Positions 4,849 through 41,844 of a DNA stretch of 46,769 nucleotides are shown piece after piece. The stretch's first letter is position 1. Every line of letters starts with the position of its first letter. The notes below the pieces were generated by a model. That model was given only the letters and a program-made list of their open reading frames with translations. It was not told where the DNA came from and searched no databases. A program made the position numbers and the translations under genes. The stretch covers positions 1 to 46,769 of the IMG/VR virus record IMGVR_UViG_3300024257_000018; one strand, 5' to 3'. Origin of the DNA: a virus.

Positions 4849-5199
4849 CTAAGGTTGGCTCGCTTTCGCCGCCACATGCTGCGCAGGGACCCCCGCGTCG
4901 ATCAGCCGGGCGTCGATGTCATCGGGGCAGCACGTAATTCGGTTGAATGCGTTTGCGCGAGCGTCGGCGACCGCGTTCCAGACCTCAGTGCTGGAGTTAT
5001 GGTTCGGCACGACTGCGTCGAGAAGCAACGCGACATTGATCGGGTTGAGCGATACGAAGGCGCACTCGTTGTATAGGTCGACATCACAGCGGTGACTGAT
5101 CGCGTAGTCGATCGCTTCCTGCCCCCGGAGTAGGCAGGCGCTCCATGCGGTCGTTCCGTGGTAGTATTTTGCCTCATGTCGTTTGTCGTTGCCGTTCAT
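4849..5199 (-). CDS. Hypothetical accessory-cassette protein, 116 aa
   Basis: The ATG at 5199 has GGAG 7-8 bases upstream and sits just after operator promoter B. Longer readings run through the promoter and are rejected. The N-terminus (AKYYHGTTAWSACLLRGQEAIDYAISHRCD) resembles a single ankyrin-like or ADP-ribosyltransferase-like opening, but nothing decisive. It appears to be a stand-alone cassette (one promoter, one gene). Confidence 0.65.
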   Translation of the reverse strand: MNGNDKRHEAKYYHGTTAWSACLLRGQEAIDYAISHRCDVDLYNECAFVSLNPINVALLLDAVVPNHNSSTEVWNAVADARANAFNRITCCPDDIDARLIDAGVPAQHVAAKASQP

Positions 5200-5302
5200 C
5201 TTGCTTGCTCCGTGGTGGTTTGTCCTGCTCACGGGTATAGTTATACGCACACCGCGTAAGCATTGCAAGCAGAAAATGCACGGGGAGTGTATTTTCTTTT
5301 CA
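5197..5302. repeat. 106-bp promoter/leader repeat, copy 1
   Basis: From the start codon of the 116-aa gene through its leader, promoter, operator and upstream palindrome, this stretch matches 25071-25176 with only six differences counted by eye. The two genes it precedes are unrelated. The repeat is therefore a portable regulatory cassette. Confidence 0.85.
5240..5296 (-). promoter_or_regulatory. Leftward promoter with operator and upstream palindrome (site B)
   Basis: Minus strand: -35 TTGCAA (5268-5263), 17 bp, -10 TATAAC (5245-5240). The operator TACGC-N5-GCGTA covers 5244-5258. Nine bp beyond the -35 lies a second palindrome, GCAC-N5-GTGT (5278-5290), inside a longer A/T-flanked inverted repeat at 5272-5296. 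It is almost identical to site E near 25140. Confidence 0.78.
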
Positions 5303-5330
5303 ACAACCATGATCGCAGGCCACCAGCGCG

Positions 5331-21701: not shown

Positions 21702-21747
21702 TGTGTGTCTCCGTGGTGGCGTGTGGTTCGTCCTGCTTACAAATACA

Positions 21748-21800
21748 ACTATACGCACACTGCGTAACCATTGCAAGGGAAAAGTACACAAAAAGTGCAG
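21748..21800 (-). promoter_or_regulatory. Leftward promoter with operator and upstream palindrome (site D)
   Basis: Minus strand: -35 TTGCAA (21776-21771), 17 bp, -10 TATAGT (21753-21748). A perfect operator lies at 21752-21766. The upstream element ACAC-N5-GTGC (21786-21798) sits 9 bp from the -35, exactly as at sites B, E and F. Confidence 0.75.
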
Positions 21801-24833: not shown

Positions 24834-25073
24834 CTAGTAGTCGTCGCGTCCGAGGCTGCGGAGTGCGATGCGGAGCGCCTCGATCTCTTCCTCTGCCTGC
24901 CGGAGCATCCTGCGCTCGTAGCCGAGGTCGGTCTTGAACTGGGCCACGCTCGCGTCGCCCTTCGTCATCTCGGTGTGGTGGCGGTAGTTGGCGCGCGTCT
25001 TCATCCTGGCGTCGAACCACTCGTTCGCGCAGTCCATCATGTCGGTGGTGGTGTCTTTTTTGAGGTTCTGCAT
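24834..25073 (-). CDS. Small helical accessory-cassette protein, 79 aa
   Basis: The ATG at 25073 follows promoter E and a leader nearly identical to that of the gene at 5199. The product is almost entirely helical and charged (EMTKGDASVAQFKTDLGYER, AEEEIEALRIALRSLG), perhaps a coiled coil. It is a single-gene cassette closed by the hairpin at 24798-24823. Confidence 0.66.
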   Translation of the reverse strand: MQNLKKDTTTDMMDCANEWFDARMKTRANYRHHTEMTKGDASVAQFKTDLGYERRMLRQAEEEIEALRIALRSLGRDDY

Positions 25074-25176
25074 CTTGCTCGCTCCTTGGTGGTTTGTCCT
25101 GCTCACGGGTATAGTTATACGCACACCGCGTAAGCATTGCAAGCAGAAAATGCACGAAAAGTGCATTTTCTTTTCA
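25071..25176. repeat. 106-bp promoter/leader repeat, copy 2
   Basis: This matches 5197-5302 with six differences, covering start codon, leader, promoter, operator and upstream palindrome. The conservation stops at the coding region. Confidence 0.85.
25114..25170 (-). promoter_or_regulatory. Leftward promoter with operator and perfect upstream palindrome (site E)
   Basis: Minus strand: -35 TTGCAA (25142-25137), 17 bp, -10 TATAAC (25119-25114); operator TACGC-N5-GCGTA at 25118-25132. The upstream element is a perfect 10-bp inverted repeat with 5-bp loop (GAAAATGCAC / GTGCATTTTC, 25146-25170), 9 bp from -35 to its GCAC core. Confidence 0.8.
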
Positions 25177-25183
25177 CCACGGT

Positions 25184-26119
25184 TTAGGCAGCCAGCGCGT
25201 CCACGTCGCTGCCGGCCGCATCGGTCAGGTACTCGGCTGCGAGCCTGGCCTTGCTTGCGGCGGTGAAGATCGCCTTCGGCTGCTCACGGAGATGGCCAGC
25301 CCAGTGGACGAGATACGCCTCGTTCTCGGGGTGGAGTTCGTTGCGGATGCCCAAGTCGCAGCACAGGAACGAGCTGGTCAACTCGGCGACAAGCTCCTCC
25401 ATCGCCCGGTCGAGGTCGCGGTCACAGCGTTCGGGCTTCTTCGTCCAGTGCCCCAGTTCATGCAGGCATGCGGACCAGTACGAGTCGGGCGTATGGAACC
25501 GGGTCGCTGGCGGGAGCTGGATCCGATCCTCGCCGGGGATGTACCAGGCGCCGGCTGCATCATGCGTGATCTCGGCACCGGTAGCATCCACGAAGTCCTG
25601 CGCGTTGTTGTAGGTTTCGCGCGGGTCCTCGGCCAGCACTTCGAGGTCGGCAAGCGGTCGTTCCTTGCCCGGTGCCCAGTTGATCTGCTCGTGGTTGAAC
25701 ACCGTGTAGACCTTCAGCATCATGAACGACTTCAGGGTCTCGGTGCCGTCGTCGTCGCGGTCGCGTTTGGTCATCTTCTTCCAGAACGTGATCTTGGTGC
25801 CCTTCTGACCCTTGCGGACGCCGAGGCCGCTCGGTGCGTCACCATTGCCGGCCCACTTCCATCCACGCCCGGCCTTCTCGAAGCCGTTGATCTTCTGAAC
25901 CTGCCCGAACGTGTACCAGCGCGGGTCGGCGTAGCTTGCAATCCAGGTCAGCCACACGTTCATGCCGCGGTACTCGTGGCCGCTGGAGCCGTTGTGTGGG
26001 GTGCCGACCGCGTTCCACGGACGGACCCACGGCGGCGCCTCGCGCTTGCCGGTAAGGACCTCGTCGATGGCGGTAGCGACCCGGTTGGCGATCTCAGTGT
26101 AGTGGTCTTGCTTCTTCAT
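25184..26119 (-). CDS. ArdC-like antirestriction protein (ssDNA-binding plus metalloprotease-type domain), 311 aa
   Basis: The N-terminal domain (1-150) matches the ArdC/DUF1738 type (PPWVRPW, YRGMNVWLTW, GQVQKINGF, GVRKGQKG). The C-terminal domain is a zincin with HELGH (220-224) and a downstream EELVAEL helix supplying a third ligand (E246). ArdC proteins from conjugative plasmids and phages protect incoming DNA from host restriction. It follows the 67-aa gene by 4 bases under promoter F. Confidence 0.88.
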   Translation of the reverse strand: MKKQDHYTEIANRVATAIDEVLTGKREAPPWVRPWNAVGTPHNGSSGHEYRGMNVWLTWIASYADPRWYTFGQVQKINGFEKAGRGWKWAGNGDAPSGLGVRKGQKGTKITFWKKMTKRDRDDDGTETLKSFMMLKVYTVFNHEQINWAPGKERPLADLEVLAEDPRETYNNAQDFVDATGAEITHDAAGAWYIPGEDRIQLPPATRFHTPDSYWSACLHELGHWTKKPERCDRDLDRAMEELVAELTSSFLCCDLGIRNELHPENEAYLVHWAGHLREQPKAIFTAASKARLAAEYLTDAAGSDVDALAA

Positions 26120-26123
26120 TGGT

Positions 26124-26327
26124 CTACAGATCCAGCATGTCGGAGATTGCGTCGAGGACATCCTCGGTGTCAGGCATCGCGCAGCGGTTCTCCTGCCCGA
26201 AGATGCTGACGAACATCTGGATGGTGTGGCGCAGGTTGCAGACGTTGCCGAGTTGTCTTGCCGCCGCGATTTCGTCGTTGCTCATCTGGCCGATGACTTC
26301 GCTTGCGAGTTCGTAGGTGGTTTCCAT
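26124..26327 (-). CDS. Small helical protein, 67 aa
   Basis: GGAGG precedes the ATG at 26327, just downstream of promoter F. The product consists of short acidic helices (YELASEVIGQMSNDEIAAARQL ending in VLDAISDMLDL). It is co-transcribed with the ArdC-like gene, so it may assist antirestriction (inference). Confidence 0.66.
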   Translation of the reverse strand: METTYELASEVIGQMSNDEIAAARQLGNVCNLRHTIQMFVSIFGQENRCAMPDTEDVLDAISDMLDL

Positions 26328-29559: not shown

Positions 29560-30300
29560 ATGAGGCTATCGCAGGTTGTGGCGTTGGAAGCTGACGCCAA
29601 GAAGCGAACACACGGTGAGGTCACCGCCATTCACAAGGCCATGCAGAAGGGCGAGTTGTACGCCGGAAGCGTGGAAGTGTACGAGCCAGCCTCGGACACA
29701 GATGAAGCCCTGCCGGCCAAGAGGGTAAGGGTTCGGATGGTGGCCGGTGACGCCCTTCAGGACATTACCGATGCGTGGGCTAAGTTGGGTGGCCTCACCT
29801 TGTCCAAGGAACTGGGCAACTGCAATGAGGCCGCCATGGCCCCGGTCACGGTGTCAGACACCATGACCACCATGCCGCTGCCGGTTCCGGCGTTGCTGTT
29901 CCTGGAAAAGCAGTTCACCGACATGAGGCGCGCCATCGACGTGGTGCCAACCCTGGACGAGGCGGACGAGTGGGCCTGGGATGAGGATCTCGGTTACCAC
30001 CGTACGGCGCATCAGGTAACGACCCGCAAGACCGCCAAAAGGACGCGCGCAATCGTGCTTCACAAGCCGACCAAGGAGCACCCGGCGCAAACCCAGCTCA
30101 TCAGCGAAGATGTGACCGTCGGGTGGTGGCGTGGCACCAAGTTCAGCGGCGCCATGACCCGCAAGGACAAGAAGGCCATGCTGGCCCGCTGCGACGAAAT
30201 GATCGCTGCGATCAAGAAGGCCCGAGACGACGCCAACCGCGCTCGCGTGGATGAGGTGGACGTTGTTGGACCGCTATTCGATTACGTGCTCGGCAAGTAG
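29560..30300 (+). CDS. DUF7873-like conserved phage protein, 246 aa
   Basis: AGGAGG precedes the ATG at 29560. The opening MRLSQVVALEADAKKRTHGEVTAIHKAMQK, shown in pieces as MRLSQVVALE and AIHKAMQKGELY, plus LLFLEKQFTDMRRAID, a PTLDEADEW segment, KEHPAQTQLI and GWWRGTKFSGAM match a family I recall as DUF7873, common in actinophages and plasmids. Function unknown. It sits between the terminase and tRNA regions. Confidence 0.76.
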   Translation: MRLSQVVALEADAKKRTHGEVTAIHKAMQKGELYAGSVEVYEPASDTDEALPAKRVRVRMVAGDALQDITDAWAKLGGLTLSKELGNCNEAAMAPVTVSDTMTTMPLPVPALLFLEKQFTDMRRAIDVVPTLDEADEWAWDEDLGYHRTAHQVTTRKTAKRTRAIVLHKPTKEHPAQTQLISEDVTVGWWRGTKFSGAMTRKDKKAMLARCDEMIAAIKKARDDANRARVDEVDVVGPLFDYVLGK

Positions 30301-30380
30301 CCGGGAACGGATCTCCAACTGAGGTAGACTGAGATTCAGGCTTAGGATCAAACTGACCTATGGGAACACGGTACGCTATT

Positions 30381-30442
30381 GCAGGTTCGAATCCTGCCCG
30401 CTCCAAGAGTGGAGCGGTGGCGGAACGGTATACGCACGACGC
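30381..30442 (+). tRNA. Circularly permuted tRNA candidate 1 (Leu-like, class II)
   Basis: The 3' half comes first: T arm GCAGG-TTCGAAT-CCTGC (30381-30397), acceptor CCGCTCC (30398-30404), A73, then AGAGT. The 5' half follows: acceptor GGAGCGG (30411-30417, perfect 7-bp match), TG, and a Leu-type D arm GCGGAACGGTATACGC (30420-30435). The next bases (30438-30454) can form an anticodon arm with one A.C mismatch and loop CTTGACA. The joining point, the variable arm and thus the anticodon could not be settled. One model joins GCGTA (30461-30465) with TACGC (30372-30376) as variable stem. No CCA is encoded. Confidence 0.5.
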
Positions 30443-30471
30443 CTTGACAGCATCGGTTCCGCGTATCGTCC

Positions 30472-30514
30472 CCTTAGCTTTTACCCTCAGATGCTCAGTA
30501 TTAAAAAGGCTAGG
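30472..30514 (+). other. Hairpin between the two tRNA candidates
   Basis: CCTTAGCTTTT (30472-30482) pairs with AAAAGGCTAGG (30504-30514) with one bulge and one G.U pair, around a 21-base loop. It may separate or help process the two tRNA units. Confidence 0.4.
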
Positions 30515-30538: not shown

Positions 30539-30619
30539 CGGCTGCGTCGTGGGTTCAAATCCCACCCCTCACCCCACATATGTGAGGGTAGCTCAGTGGA
30601 CAGAGCGGGCCGTTTCAAC
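30539..30619 (+). tRNA. Circularly permuted tRNA candidate 2 (class I, split in the anticodon loop)
   Basis: 3' half: anticodon-stem strand CGGCT (30539-30543), variable loop GCGTC, T arm GTGGG-TTCAAAT-CCCAC (30549-30565), acceptor CCCTCAC (30566-30572), C73 and encoded CCA (30574-30576). After CATAT comes the 5' half: acceptor GTGAGGG (30582-30588, perfect match), TA, D arm GCTC..GAGC (30591-30606), G26, anticodon strand GGCCG (30608-30612, pairs with CGGCT). The standard T8, A14, G18, G19, A21, C48, T54, T55, C56 and A58 are all present. Joining TTTCAA to A would give a UCA anticodon, but the junction is not known. Confidence 0.62.
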
Positions 30620-30655
30620 CGGATGCGAGTAAGCGTGTGTCAGTCAAGCCTTTAC

Positions 30656-30699
30656 AAGGGCGGGGAGCCCATCAATGGAACCGATGTTTCCCCGCCCTT
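30656..30699 (+). terminator. Strong hairpin downstream of the tRNA locus
   Basis: AAGGGCGGGGA (30656-30666) and TCCCCGCCCTT (30689-30699) form an 11-bp perfect stem with a 22-base loop. There is no U-run. It may end the tRNA transcript or protect its 3' side. Confidence 0.5.
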
Positions 30700-39525: not shown

Positions 39526-41844
39526 ATGCCCATCTCGACTGCACTCGACCCGACGACGCTGTCCCCGACTTTCACCAAGGGTGGAAAGGGCATCAACAGC
39601 GGCACACTGTATGAACTGGCGGTAAACCTCCGTGCGCGAAGCACCGAGGCCGCAGCCGCGATTCTGGCTCTCGAAGGCGGCGCAATCGGCTCCCCAACGG
39701 TCGTGGCCTTCGCGGCGTCCCCGTACACCGTGCTCACGGCGGACGACTTCATCGTCTGCGACACTTCTGGCGGCGCGATCGAGTTGGATCTGCCCGCTTC
39801 GGACACGATCGGTCGGAAGATCGTCATTTGCCGCCAGGGTGCGGGCAACGTCACCATCGATGGCAACGGGGCTGAGACTGTCGGCGCGAACCAGGGCGGT
39901 GGTGCCACCTACGTCCTCGCCTCCGACGGCGAAGCCGTGATGATCCTCGATACGAACGTGGCCACGCTAGAATGGCAGCGCATCGCGGACAACCAGCGGT
40001 TGTCGACTGATGCAGCTGTCAGCTTCGCGGGCGTGACCAATACCGGTGGCGAGAACATGGGCCCGCCCACCGTGGTTGCCTTCGGTGCATCTCCGTACAC
40101 CGTGCTCGCCACCGACAGCGAGATCGTGTGTGATACCTCTGGCGGCGCTGTCACGCTCGACCTGCCAGCCTCTGCGGCTCTCGGGCGCAAGCTCGCGGTC
40201 TACCGACAGGGCGCCAACGACGTCACCATCGAAGGTGATGGGGCCGAGACGGTCGGTGCTAACCAGGGTGGTGGTCTCGCGTACATTCTGGACGAAGACG
40301 GCGCCAGTGTGATGCTCCTCGACACCAACGTGGCTACGTTGGAATGGCAGCTGGAAGGTCCGGCCGTCAGCGCGGTCACGCTCGTTGCTTTCGGCGCATC
40401 TCCCTACACGGTCCTGTCGTCCGATGACTCCATCATCTGCGATACGAGCGGCGGCGCGATCGAACTCGATCTCCCTGCGTCCGCGGCTCTTGGTAGACGG
40501 ATCAACATCTACCGCCAGGGTGGCAACAACGTCACGCTCGACGGTGACGGTGCAGAGACGGTGGGGACAAACCAGGGCGGCGGGGCTACCTATGTGATGG
40601 CCTCGGACGGCGACGCAGTCTCGATCCTCGACACCAACGTCGCGACGCTCGAATGGCAACTCGTATCGCCGAACCAGCGGCTCTCGACAGACGCCGCCGT
40701 GGAGTTCGCGGGCGTCACGAACACCGGCGGAGAGAACAAGGGTGCGGTCACGGTCGTCGCTTTTGGTGCGTCACCGTATACGGTCCTGGCAACGGACAGC
40801 GAGATCGTCTGCGATACGTCGGGCGGTGCGATCGAGTTGGACCTGCCGGCGTCAGGCGCTGTTGGCCGAAAGATCAGCATCTACCGCCAGGGTGCGGGCA
40901 ACGTCACCCTTGACGGCGACGGCGCTGAGACCGTAGGTGCTGACCAGGGTGGCGGCGCGACGTTTGTTATGGCGTCCAACGGCGATGCGGTCACGGTTCT
41001 TGATACCGGCGTGGCGACGCAGGAATGGCAGATCGTCGCCGGCAACCAGCGCACGTCTGTCGACGCGGCTGTGATCTTCGCTGGCATCGGAAACACCGGA
41101 TATGAGCACCTCGGCGCGGTCACGACTGTCGCCTTCGGCGCATCTCCGTACACGGTCCTCGCTGCGGACAGCGTGATCTACTGTGACACATCCGGTGGAC
41201 CGATCGAACTGGACCTTCCGGCATCTGCCGCTCTTGGACGAAGGATCCAGATCACGAACAACGGCGATGATCCTGTCACCATCGACGGTGACGGAGCCGA
41301 GACGGTCGGTGCGAACCAGGGTGGCGGGGCGACATACGAACTCGGTGGTGGCGCAGCGCTCGCGATCATCGACACGAACGTGGCGACCGACGAGTGGGTC
41401 ATCATCGGTGAGCGGAACCTGTACGATGTCCGGTTGATGCAGATCAATGTCGAGCACACCGCGTGGACTGCTGCCGCACAAGCCGAGACTATCGCAGTCT
41501 ACACCGTACCTGACGACATGAACGTTCTCGACGTCTGGTACGAGTTGGAAGTCGAGTTCGATGACCTCGCCGGTCCTCCGATCACCGCTGCTGATTTGAC
41601 GATCGGAACCAGCGGCGGAGCCGCCAACGACTTCGCCCTTACCGCCAATGTCCTTACTGGTGCCGGTGCTGGTTGGAAGTCGTTGACCAACGCGCTCAAG
41701 GGAGCTTTCGTTGACGACGCGTTGACGACGATCCTCGCCGGTGCGGACACCATCACCGCAACGTTGACCGTTGGTGCGGGTGAAGATGTGGCGGACACGG
41801 ACCAAGGCGAAATCACCATCTACGTGCGTTACCAGTTCCTGTAA
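39526..41844 (+). CDS. Tandem-repeat beta-structured head or tail fibre-like protein, 772 aa
   Basis: After about 57 residues come five copies of a 100-125-residue unit with core ASPYTVL, DTSGGAIELDLPAS, a Gly-Arg turn, RQGAGNVTIDGDGAETVG, NQGGGATY and ILDTNVAT, followed by a roughly 145-residue C-terminal domain. The unit resembles repeats seen in phage fibres and surface decorations. The position between capsid and connector genes suggests a head fibre or capsid-attached adhesin. Confidence 0.72.
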   Translation: MPISTALDPTTLSPTFTKGGKGINSGTLYELAVNLRARSTEAAAAILALEGGAIGSPTVVAFAASPYTVLTADDFIVCDTSGGAIELDLPASDTIGRKIVICRQGAGNVTIDGNGAETVGANQGGGATYVLASDGEAVMILDTNVATLEWQRIADNQRLSTDAAVSFAGVTNTGGENMGPPTVVAFGASPYTVLATDSEIVCDTSGGAVTLDLPASAALGRKLAVYRQGANDVTIEGDGAETVGANQGGGLAYILDEDGASVMLLDTNVATLEWQLEGPAVSAVTLVAFGASPYTVLSSDDSIICDTSGGAIELDLPASAALGRRINIYRQGGNNVTLDGDGAETVGTNQGGGATYVMASDGDAVSILDTNVATLEWQLVSPNQRLSTDAAVEFAGVTNTGGENKGAVTVVAFGASPYTVLATDSEIVCDTSGGAIELDLPASGAVGRKISIYRQGAGNVTLDGDGAETVGADQGGGATFVMASNGDAVTVLDTGVATQEWQIVAGNQRTSVDAAVIFAGIGNTGYEHLGAVTTVAFGASPYTVLAADSVIYCDTSGGPIELDLPASAALGRRIQITNNGDDPVTIDGDGAETVGANQGGGATYELGGGAALAIIDTNVATDEWVIIGERNLYDVRLMQINVEHTAWTAAAQAETIAVYTVPDDMNVLDVWYELEVEFDDLAGPPITAADLTIGTSGGAANDFALTANVLTGAGAGWKSLTNALKGAFVDDALTTILAGADTITATLTVGAGEDVADTDQGEITIYVRYQFL
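39697..41430 (+). repeat. Five in-frame tandem repeats
   Basis: Units begin near 39697, 40069, 40378, 40745 and 41117, so their lengths vary from about 310 to 370 bp. Short linkers (NQRLSTDAAV.FAGVTNTGGEN) occur in some but not all units. The repeats are diverged in DNA but conserved in protein, arguing for selection rather than recent duplication. Confidence 0.82.

Follow-up and report, generated by a model that had tools for sequence, protein, structure and literature searches.

The window, a 46,769-nt stretch of viral DNA (positions 1 to 46,769 of IMG/VR record IMGVR_UViG_3300024257_000018), carries the gene of a DUF7873 (PF25283) protein directly upstream of an RNA with two tRNA-like elements, denoted E1 and E2, which lie 168 nt apart in one cassette. 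The stop codon of the DUF7873 gene is 80 nt ahead of the T arm of E1, and E2 occupies 30549-30606. The features of the locus are as follows.

29560-30300, plus strand: DUF7873 (PF25283) protein gene, 246 aa (Pfam 223.6 bits, cut-off 27)
30328-30333, plus strand: helix Pa, 5' strand, ACTGAG, putatively enclosing E1 (position match to the helix of the homologues)
30358-30376, plus strand: E1 closing helix, 5' side, ACGGTACGC (30368-30376) and GGG (30362-30364) (minimum-free-energy fold)
30381-30397, plus strand: E1 T arm, GCAGG-TTCGAAT-CCTGC, 5/5 pairs (sequence, match of model R1)
30398-30404, plus strand: E1 3' acceptor, CCGCTCC, 7/7 with 30411-30417
30405-30410, plus strand: E1 acceptor loop, A at the discriminator position (30405), then AGAGT (30406-30410)
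30411-30417, plus strand: E1 5' acceptor, GGAGCGG, 7/7 Watson-Crick (sequence)
30420-30435, plus strand: E1 Leu-type D arm, GCGG-AACGGTAT-ACGC, loop containing GG (sequence)
30437-30455, plus strand: E1 short hairpin at the anticodon-arm position, CGACGC CTTGACA GCATCG (fold)
30461-30473, plus strand: E1 closing helix, 3' side, at the variable-arm position, GCGTATCGT (30461-30469) (fold)
30494-30499, plus strand: 3' strand of helix Pa, CTCAGT (by-eye alignment with the conserved CTCAGCATT)
30505-30511, plus strand: 5' strand of helix Pb, AAAGGCT, enclosing E2 (fold; 7 bp with AGCCTTT)
30539-30543, plus strand: E2 closing stem, 39-43 equivalent, CGGCT, 5/5 with GGCCG
30549-30565, plus strand: E2 T arm, GTGGG TTCAAAT CCCAC (sequence, model R1)
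30566-30576, plus strand: E2 3' acceptor, CCCTCAC, 7/7 with 30582-30588, then C-CCA
30582-30588, plus strand: E2 5' acceptor, GTGAGGG, 7/7 pairing, preceded by T
30591-30606, plus strand: E2 D arm, GCTC AGTGGACA GAGC (sequence, model R1)
30608-30612, plus strand: E2 closing stem, 27-31 equivalent, GGCCG, pairing with CGGCT
30647-30653, plus strand: 3' strand of helix Pb, AGCCTTT (fold)
30656-30699, plus strand: strong 12-bp hairpin past the RNA, terminator-like, with no clear T run (fold, -26.1 kcal/mol)

Elsewhere the window encodes a helicase/DNA methylase fusion protein with HINT/intein-type domains (PF07591, PF14890; 7059-10505, minus strand), an ArdC-like anti-restriction protein with a zincin-like metallopeptidase domain (25184-26161, minus strand) and a 772-aa ORF (39526-41844, plus strand) in which a repeat of about 100 aa recurs in five diverged copies spaced 309-372 nt. 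A 109-nt repeat is present at 5197-5305 and 25071-25179 (94% identical), with a weaker third copy at 21723-21799 (79%); the copies precede unrelated minus-strand genes and are possibly a shared promoter or leader.

Anatomy of the two elements

E1 reads directly as T arm, 3' acceptor, A73, AGAGT, 5' acceptor and Leu-type D arm (30381-30435), with U8 and G9 between the 5' acceptor and the D arm. A sequence-only reading had claimed this reversed order, with the 3' half ahead of the 5' half, and direct inspection bears it out together with the details given for it (CCGCTCC followed by A73, the AGAGT spacer, the 7/7 match of GGAGCGG and the Leu-type D arm). The G13·A22 mismatch of the D arm is usual in tRNA-Leu. 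The same reading had found no partner in the 3' half for CGACG or GACGC, which is right; CGACGC (30437-30442) pairs instead locally with GCATCG (30450-30455), with one C·A mismatch, and position 37 is C. In the minimum-free-energy fold, the T arm, acceptor hairpin and D arm sit inside a 9-bp helix ACGGTACGC:GCGTATCGT, lengthened by GGG:CCC (30362-30364:30471-30473). E1 is thus larger than 30381-30442, the extent at first assigned to it, all of which lies within the closing helix. This helix and the local CGACGC hairpin together place the exit of the RNA at the variable arm, where the earlier reading had suspected the split: E1 is class II, Leu-like, its closing helix stands at the class II variable-arm position and the RNA leaves the tRNA-like fold there. 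E2 is class I-like, with a 5-nt variable loop and the closing stem GGCCG/CGGCT at the anticodon-stem position.

The outer helices Pa (ACTGAG:CTCAGT) and Pb (AAAGGCT:AGCCTTT) of the window are putative, being assigned by position, with Pb also appearing in the fold. In the divergent copy of the window these helices are weak or cannot be recognised, and neither can the ATCGA and TTAAACG blocks around E2, which are clear in most homologues. A simple terminator scan did not call the hairpin at 30656-30699. The RNA is probably co-transcribed with the DUF7873 gene.

Dinucleotide-preserving shuffles of the whole window (300) contain on average 0.007 such elements, with a maximum of 1, compared with 2 observed, which upholds the earlier contention that two adjacent reversed loci are not a chance arrangement. 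A covariance model, R1, trained on 42 homologous elements from which the window sequences were left out, scores E1 at 51.8 bits (E = 1.2e-13) and E2 at 51.9 bits in the 46.8-kb window; the third-best match there has 10.2 bits, so that just E1 and E2 are detected. ARAGORN identifies no tRNA gene in the window, and Rfam at the gathering score has neither a match for the element nor an ordinary tRNA.

Linkage to DUF7873 and covariation

The AlphaFold model of the DUF7873 protein has a mean pLDDT of 90.5. No homologue of solved structure is found by sequence, and fold searches of the model give no match at E <= 0.001 and no recognised RNA-binding fold, the indirect (VIA) matches being scattered helices only. 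The family alignment (A1) comprises 25 proteins. DUF7873 proteins (pI 4.9-9.1) are near neutral, without strong net positive charge, so that RNA binding is not obvious from charge.

A close search for relatives of this phage with the portal and DUF7873 proteins returned one contig only, which is 100% identical and hence teaches nothing about conservation. Scanning IMG/VR with a pattern of the permuted order gave more than 100 loci among the matches listed; these and the phage loci at hand hold 116 non-redundant permuted elements by our scanner (again among the matches listed). About one-third of the pattern loci have the layout of the window, in which a gene ending in an LFDYVLGK-like motif, identified as DUF7873 (PF25283), is followed by an element of Leu type or TAGCCCA type and often by a second one. 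As these loci had been chosen for the RNA, the test was reversed: contigs were fetched by a DNA pattern of the DUF7873 protein alone, and a permuted element with 7/7 acceptor pairing was sought within 900 nt downstream, viral contigs being counted if they extend at least 600 nt downstream of DUF7873. Among the matches listed, a downstream element is present in 81 of 96 IMG/VR contigs (34 with two) and in 91 of 100 bacterial contigs (68 with two); in the upstream control, also among the matches listed, the counts are 2 of 70 viral and 1 of 100 bacterial loci. The bacterial carriers among these matches are mostly Actinobacteria (Streptomyces, Nocardia, Nonomuraea and others), with Planctomycetes, Bacteroidetes, Chloroflexi and others besides. 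All eight named phages picked only for DUF7873 carry elements: two each in Racecar, GodonK, NiceHouse, Ronaldo, PA-SR01, FBKp24 and Phendrix, and one in Vibrio phage D497. No conservation was found among the genes neighbouring DUF7873 in bacteria. In Nocardia acididurans (locus L265), an RNA ligase gene (PF09414; 1985-2752, minus strand) follows the DUF7873-RNA cassette at a distance of about 1.1 kb; it is not conserved in the other neighbourhoods examined.

The family anatomy was derived from 337 non-redundant elements from the matches listed, in which the T loop is TTCRA by selection and the D loop contains GG in 95%. Among the first elements, 105 of 122 (86%) have A at N73, and among the second elements 107 of 119 (90%) have T or G. 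NCCA follows the 3' acceptor in 134 of the 337, and the commonest base ahead of the 5' acceptor is T; these sequence features would fit processing by RNase P and at the 3' end. The consensus fold of the homologue alignment has 42 pairs, 32 of them with compensatory changes, and includes both outer helices, Pa as a covarying GCTGA:TCAGC (columns 40-43:190-194) and Pb as a covarying helix at columns 209-214:351-356. In the T arm 99.5% of the cells are paired and four of the five pairs show changes on both sides. All five pairs of the E2 closing stem form in 87 of the 119 second elements of the family, compared with 11 when the halves are mispaired as a control; closure of Leu-type E1 by hairpin and variable arm, 19 of 30 against a control of 12.3, is a modest excess. 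Acceptor pairing and covariation are partly circular because the elements were selected by acceptor complementarity; the T arm, the outer helices and the E2 closing stem are evidence more independent of selection.

Several phages have tRNA clusters on the flanks of DUF7873, as might be expected if E1 and E2 were decayed remnants of ordinary tandem tRNA genes, the alternative that the sequence-only reading had named. In the relatives, however, both elements persist, with acceptor pairs of many different sequences, the elements are conserved and covary in hundreds of loci, bacterial chromosomes included, and the chance rate per window given above also speaks against remnants. By this conservation the idea is already refuted and is given next to no probability. 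The cassette of E1 and E2 is very probably a structured RNA downstream of the DUF7873 gene in phages and bacterial chromosomes.

Permuted tRNA genes, Y RNAs and permuted tmRNA

The elements could be true circularly permuted tRNA genes, whose precursor would be joined into a circle at the break and cleaved at the acceptor stem. The 3' half ahead of the 5' half, the 7/7 acceptors, A73 and the CCA behind many 3' strands (134 of 337) would all fit, the hairpin loop CTTGACA of the window E1 has U33 and a UGA triplet, and E2 is readable with UCA. A tRNA-like anticodon arm is missing, however, in 238 of 241 family elements; a complete one, with U33 and R37, is found in one of 122 first and two of 119 second elements, which makes decoding unlikely. 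Several Leu-type relatives have a tetraloop hairpin in its place (GAAA in L103 and L228, GCAA in L093, TACG in L025), and in the window E1 the C at position 37 and the mismatched stem do not make an intact arm. The strict linkage to one protein gene, DUF7873, and the rarity of RtcB in carriers, with none found in this record, also argue against permuted genes. The circularly permuted tRNA genes of algae and Thermofilum share the leading 3' half and the short sequence between the acceptor strands; they yield decoding tRNAs via a circular RNA with a bulge-helix-bulge splice site (PMC3978253), whereas the DUF7873-linked RNA keeps no anticodon. The earlier proposal of a permuted gene yielding a tRNA is thus unsupported: we consider permuted genes unlikely, and as products a decoding tRNA-Leu or tRNA-Ser plus a second tRNA equally so. 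E1 is not a decayed tRNA and probably not a permuted tRNA gene either; tied as it is to the DUF7873 gene, the unit makes most sense as part of a non-coding RNA, in which it forms a tRNA-like domain.

YrlA, a Y RNA, consists of a tRNA-like domain on an Rsr-binding stem, and this domain binds PNPase and is modified by DusA and TruB (PMC8394870). If the cassette were such a classical Y RNA, it would work with the Ro60/Rsr (TROVE) protein. YrlA Y RNAs (RF02553) have a T arm, acceptor and D arm in the same order in a permuted module inside a closing stem, their gene adjoins that of the partner protein, YrlA is the best Rfam match (28.3 and 20.6 bits), and a TROVE gene is found somewhere in 15 of 27 searched DUF7873-carrying genomes or records. 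Yet these scores are far under the gathering score of 69, the 46.8-kb record has no TROVE/Ro60 gene, and within the fetched stretch no TROVE gene accompanies any of the DUF7873 loci (151 viral and 118 bacterial, among the matches listed), whereas a TROVE-like gene adjoins 25 of 90 permuted loci lacking DUF7873 (among the matches listed). The partner of YrlA is TROVE and phage versions of YrlA type occur beside TROVE genes; here it is the DUF7873 gene, usually with two tRNA-like domains of different type, and the tRNA-like anticodon arm is absent, unlike in YrlA-type Y RNAs. A classical Y RNA is accordingly held to be improbable.

The permuted elements without DUF7873, which have a good anticodon arm in 30 of 76 cases, were first taken as true permuted tRNAs; this was abandoned, since with 25 of the 90 loci beside a TROVE-like gene many of them are phage Y RNAs, and the DUF7873-free loci fit known phage and bacterial Y RNAs. 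The anticodon triplets of these elements are varied (U33/R37 in the 30 of 76), and a GGTTAYYTC motif often precedes them. Phage loci with one to four permuted elements adjoin a TROVE/Ro60 gene (phage Y RNAs), examples being L013 2264, L029 4512, L072 4742, L123 3021-3562, L127 277/418/585/737 and others. In Ruegeria phage RpAliso (OR257569.1, L008), two permuted elements (457-513 and 603-666) lie just past a permuted tmRNA, and neither DUF7873 nor TROVE was found in the genome. Streptomyces phage Abafar (PP750865.1, L004) has a permuted element with one acceptor bulge at 1491-1581, inside a tRNA array between tRNA-Pro and tRNA-Gly; it gives a full-length sub-threshold YrlA match, and the genome has no DUF7873 or TROVE.

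A permuted order is also expected of a natural permuted intron-exon (group I) gene or a split tmRNA-type gene giving a circular or two-piece RNA, and cyano_tmRNA and tmRNA_permuted weakly match the T/acceptor part. The permuted two-piece tmRNA (RF04321) shares the permuted T arm and acceptor and an acceptor loop that RNase P might cut, but its score is 14.1 bits against a cut-off of 47, and the DUF7873-linked RNA has no Rfam tmRNA body, has two tRNA-like domains and is linked to DUF7873. The group I idea was dropped: several element-bearing loci gave no Rfam match, although a permuted core could be missed, and the flanks between successive elements, under about 110 nt, are too short for a group I core. 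Both forms are regarded as highly unlikely.

A proposed DUF7873 ribonucleoprotein

The linkage to DUF7873 points to tRNA mimicry as the basis of an RNA-protein partnership not studied so far. The RNA is likely to be a DUF7873-partnered, tRNA-mimicking non-coding RNA with two domains, parallel to the Ro60-Y RNA system. The reversed order follows from the way the RNA enters the tRNA-like fold, through the variable arm in E1 or the anticodon stem in E2, with the acceptor closed by a short loop; YrlA-type bacterial Y RNAs use the same permuted entry (PMC8394870, PMC7790460). DUF7873 would bind and hold the RNA, as in the Rsr-YrlA-PNPase case, and the two tRNA-like elbows would recruit or decoy a tRNA-binding protein, candidates being a nuclease (PNPase in the Y-RNA case), a tRNA-cleaving toxin, a synthetase or a modifying enzyme. 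Such a recruiting or decoy function, itself an analogy, is plausible but short of probable. The acceptor loops may also be cut open by RNase P and 3' processing, in which case base pairing would keep the CCA-ended pieces together. The RNA and DUF7873 might have a role in phage growth; YrlA has been proposed as a competitive inhibitor of an anticodon nuclease (PMC7790460), and phages may use the DUF7873 ribonucleoprotein against tRNA-cleaving defences.

Rfam 15 has no family for the DUF7873-linked RNA, its best matches being the sub-threshold YrlA ones, and neither DUF7873 nor a paper on such an RNA was found in the literature searched, with subscription papers and preprints outside it. The RNA is apparently undescribed so far; a tRNA-mimicking, permuted Y-RNA-like RNA is known already, and what is new is the other protein partner and the two domains. 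Annotators should be aware that a phage tRNA reading back to front is often a tRNA mimic or a Y RNA and not a permuted tRNA gene.

We tentatively propose a second class of Y-RNA-like ribonucleoprotein, independent of Ro60 and made up of DUF7873 and its double tRNA-mimic RNA. With similar reserve, such a class could reside in bacterial chromosomes, most matches among those listed being Actinobacteria, and be carried by phages, and its two differently wired mimics might perhaps bring a tRNA-binding enzyme to its substrates or keep it from them. If this is true, DUF7873, a family without known function, would gain a specific RNA partner, and permuted tRNA mimicry would extend to an RNA-protein system besides Ro60-Y RNA.
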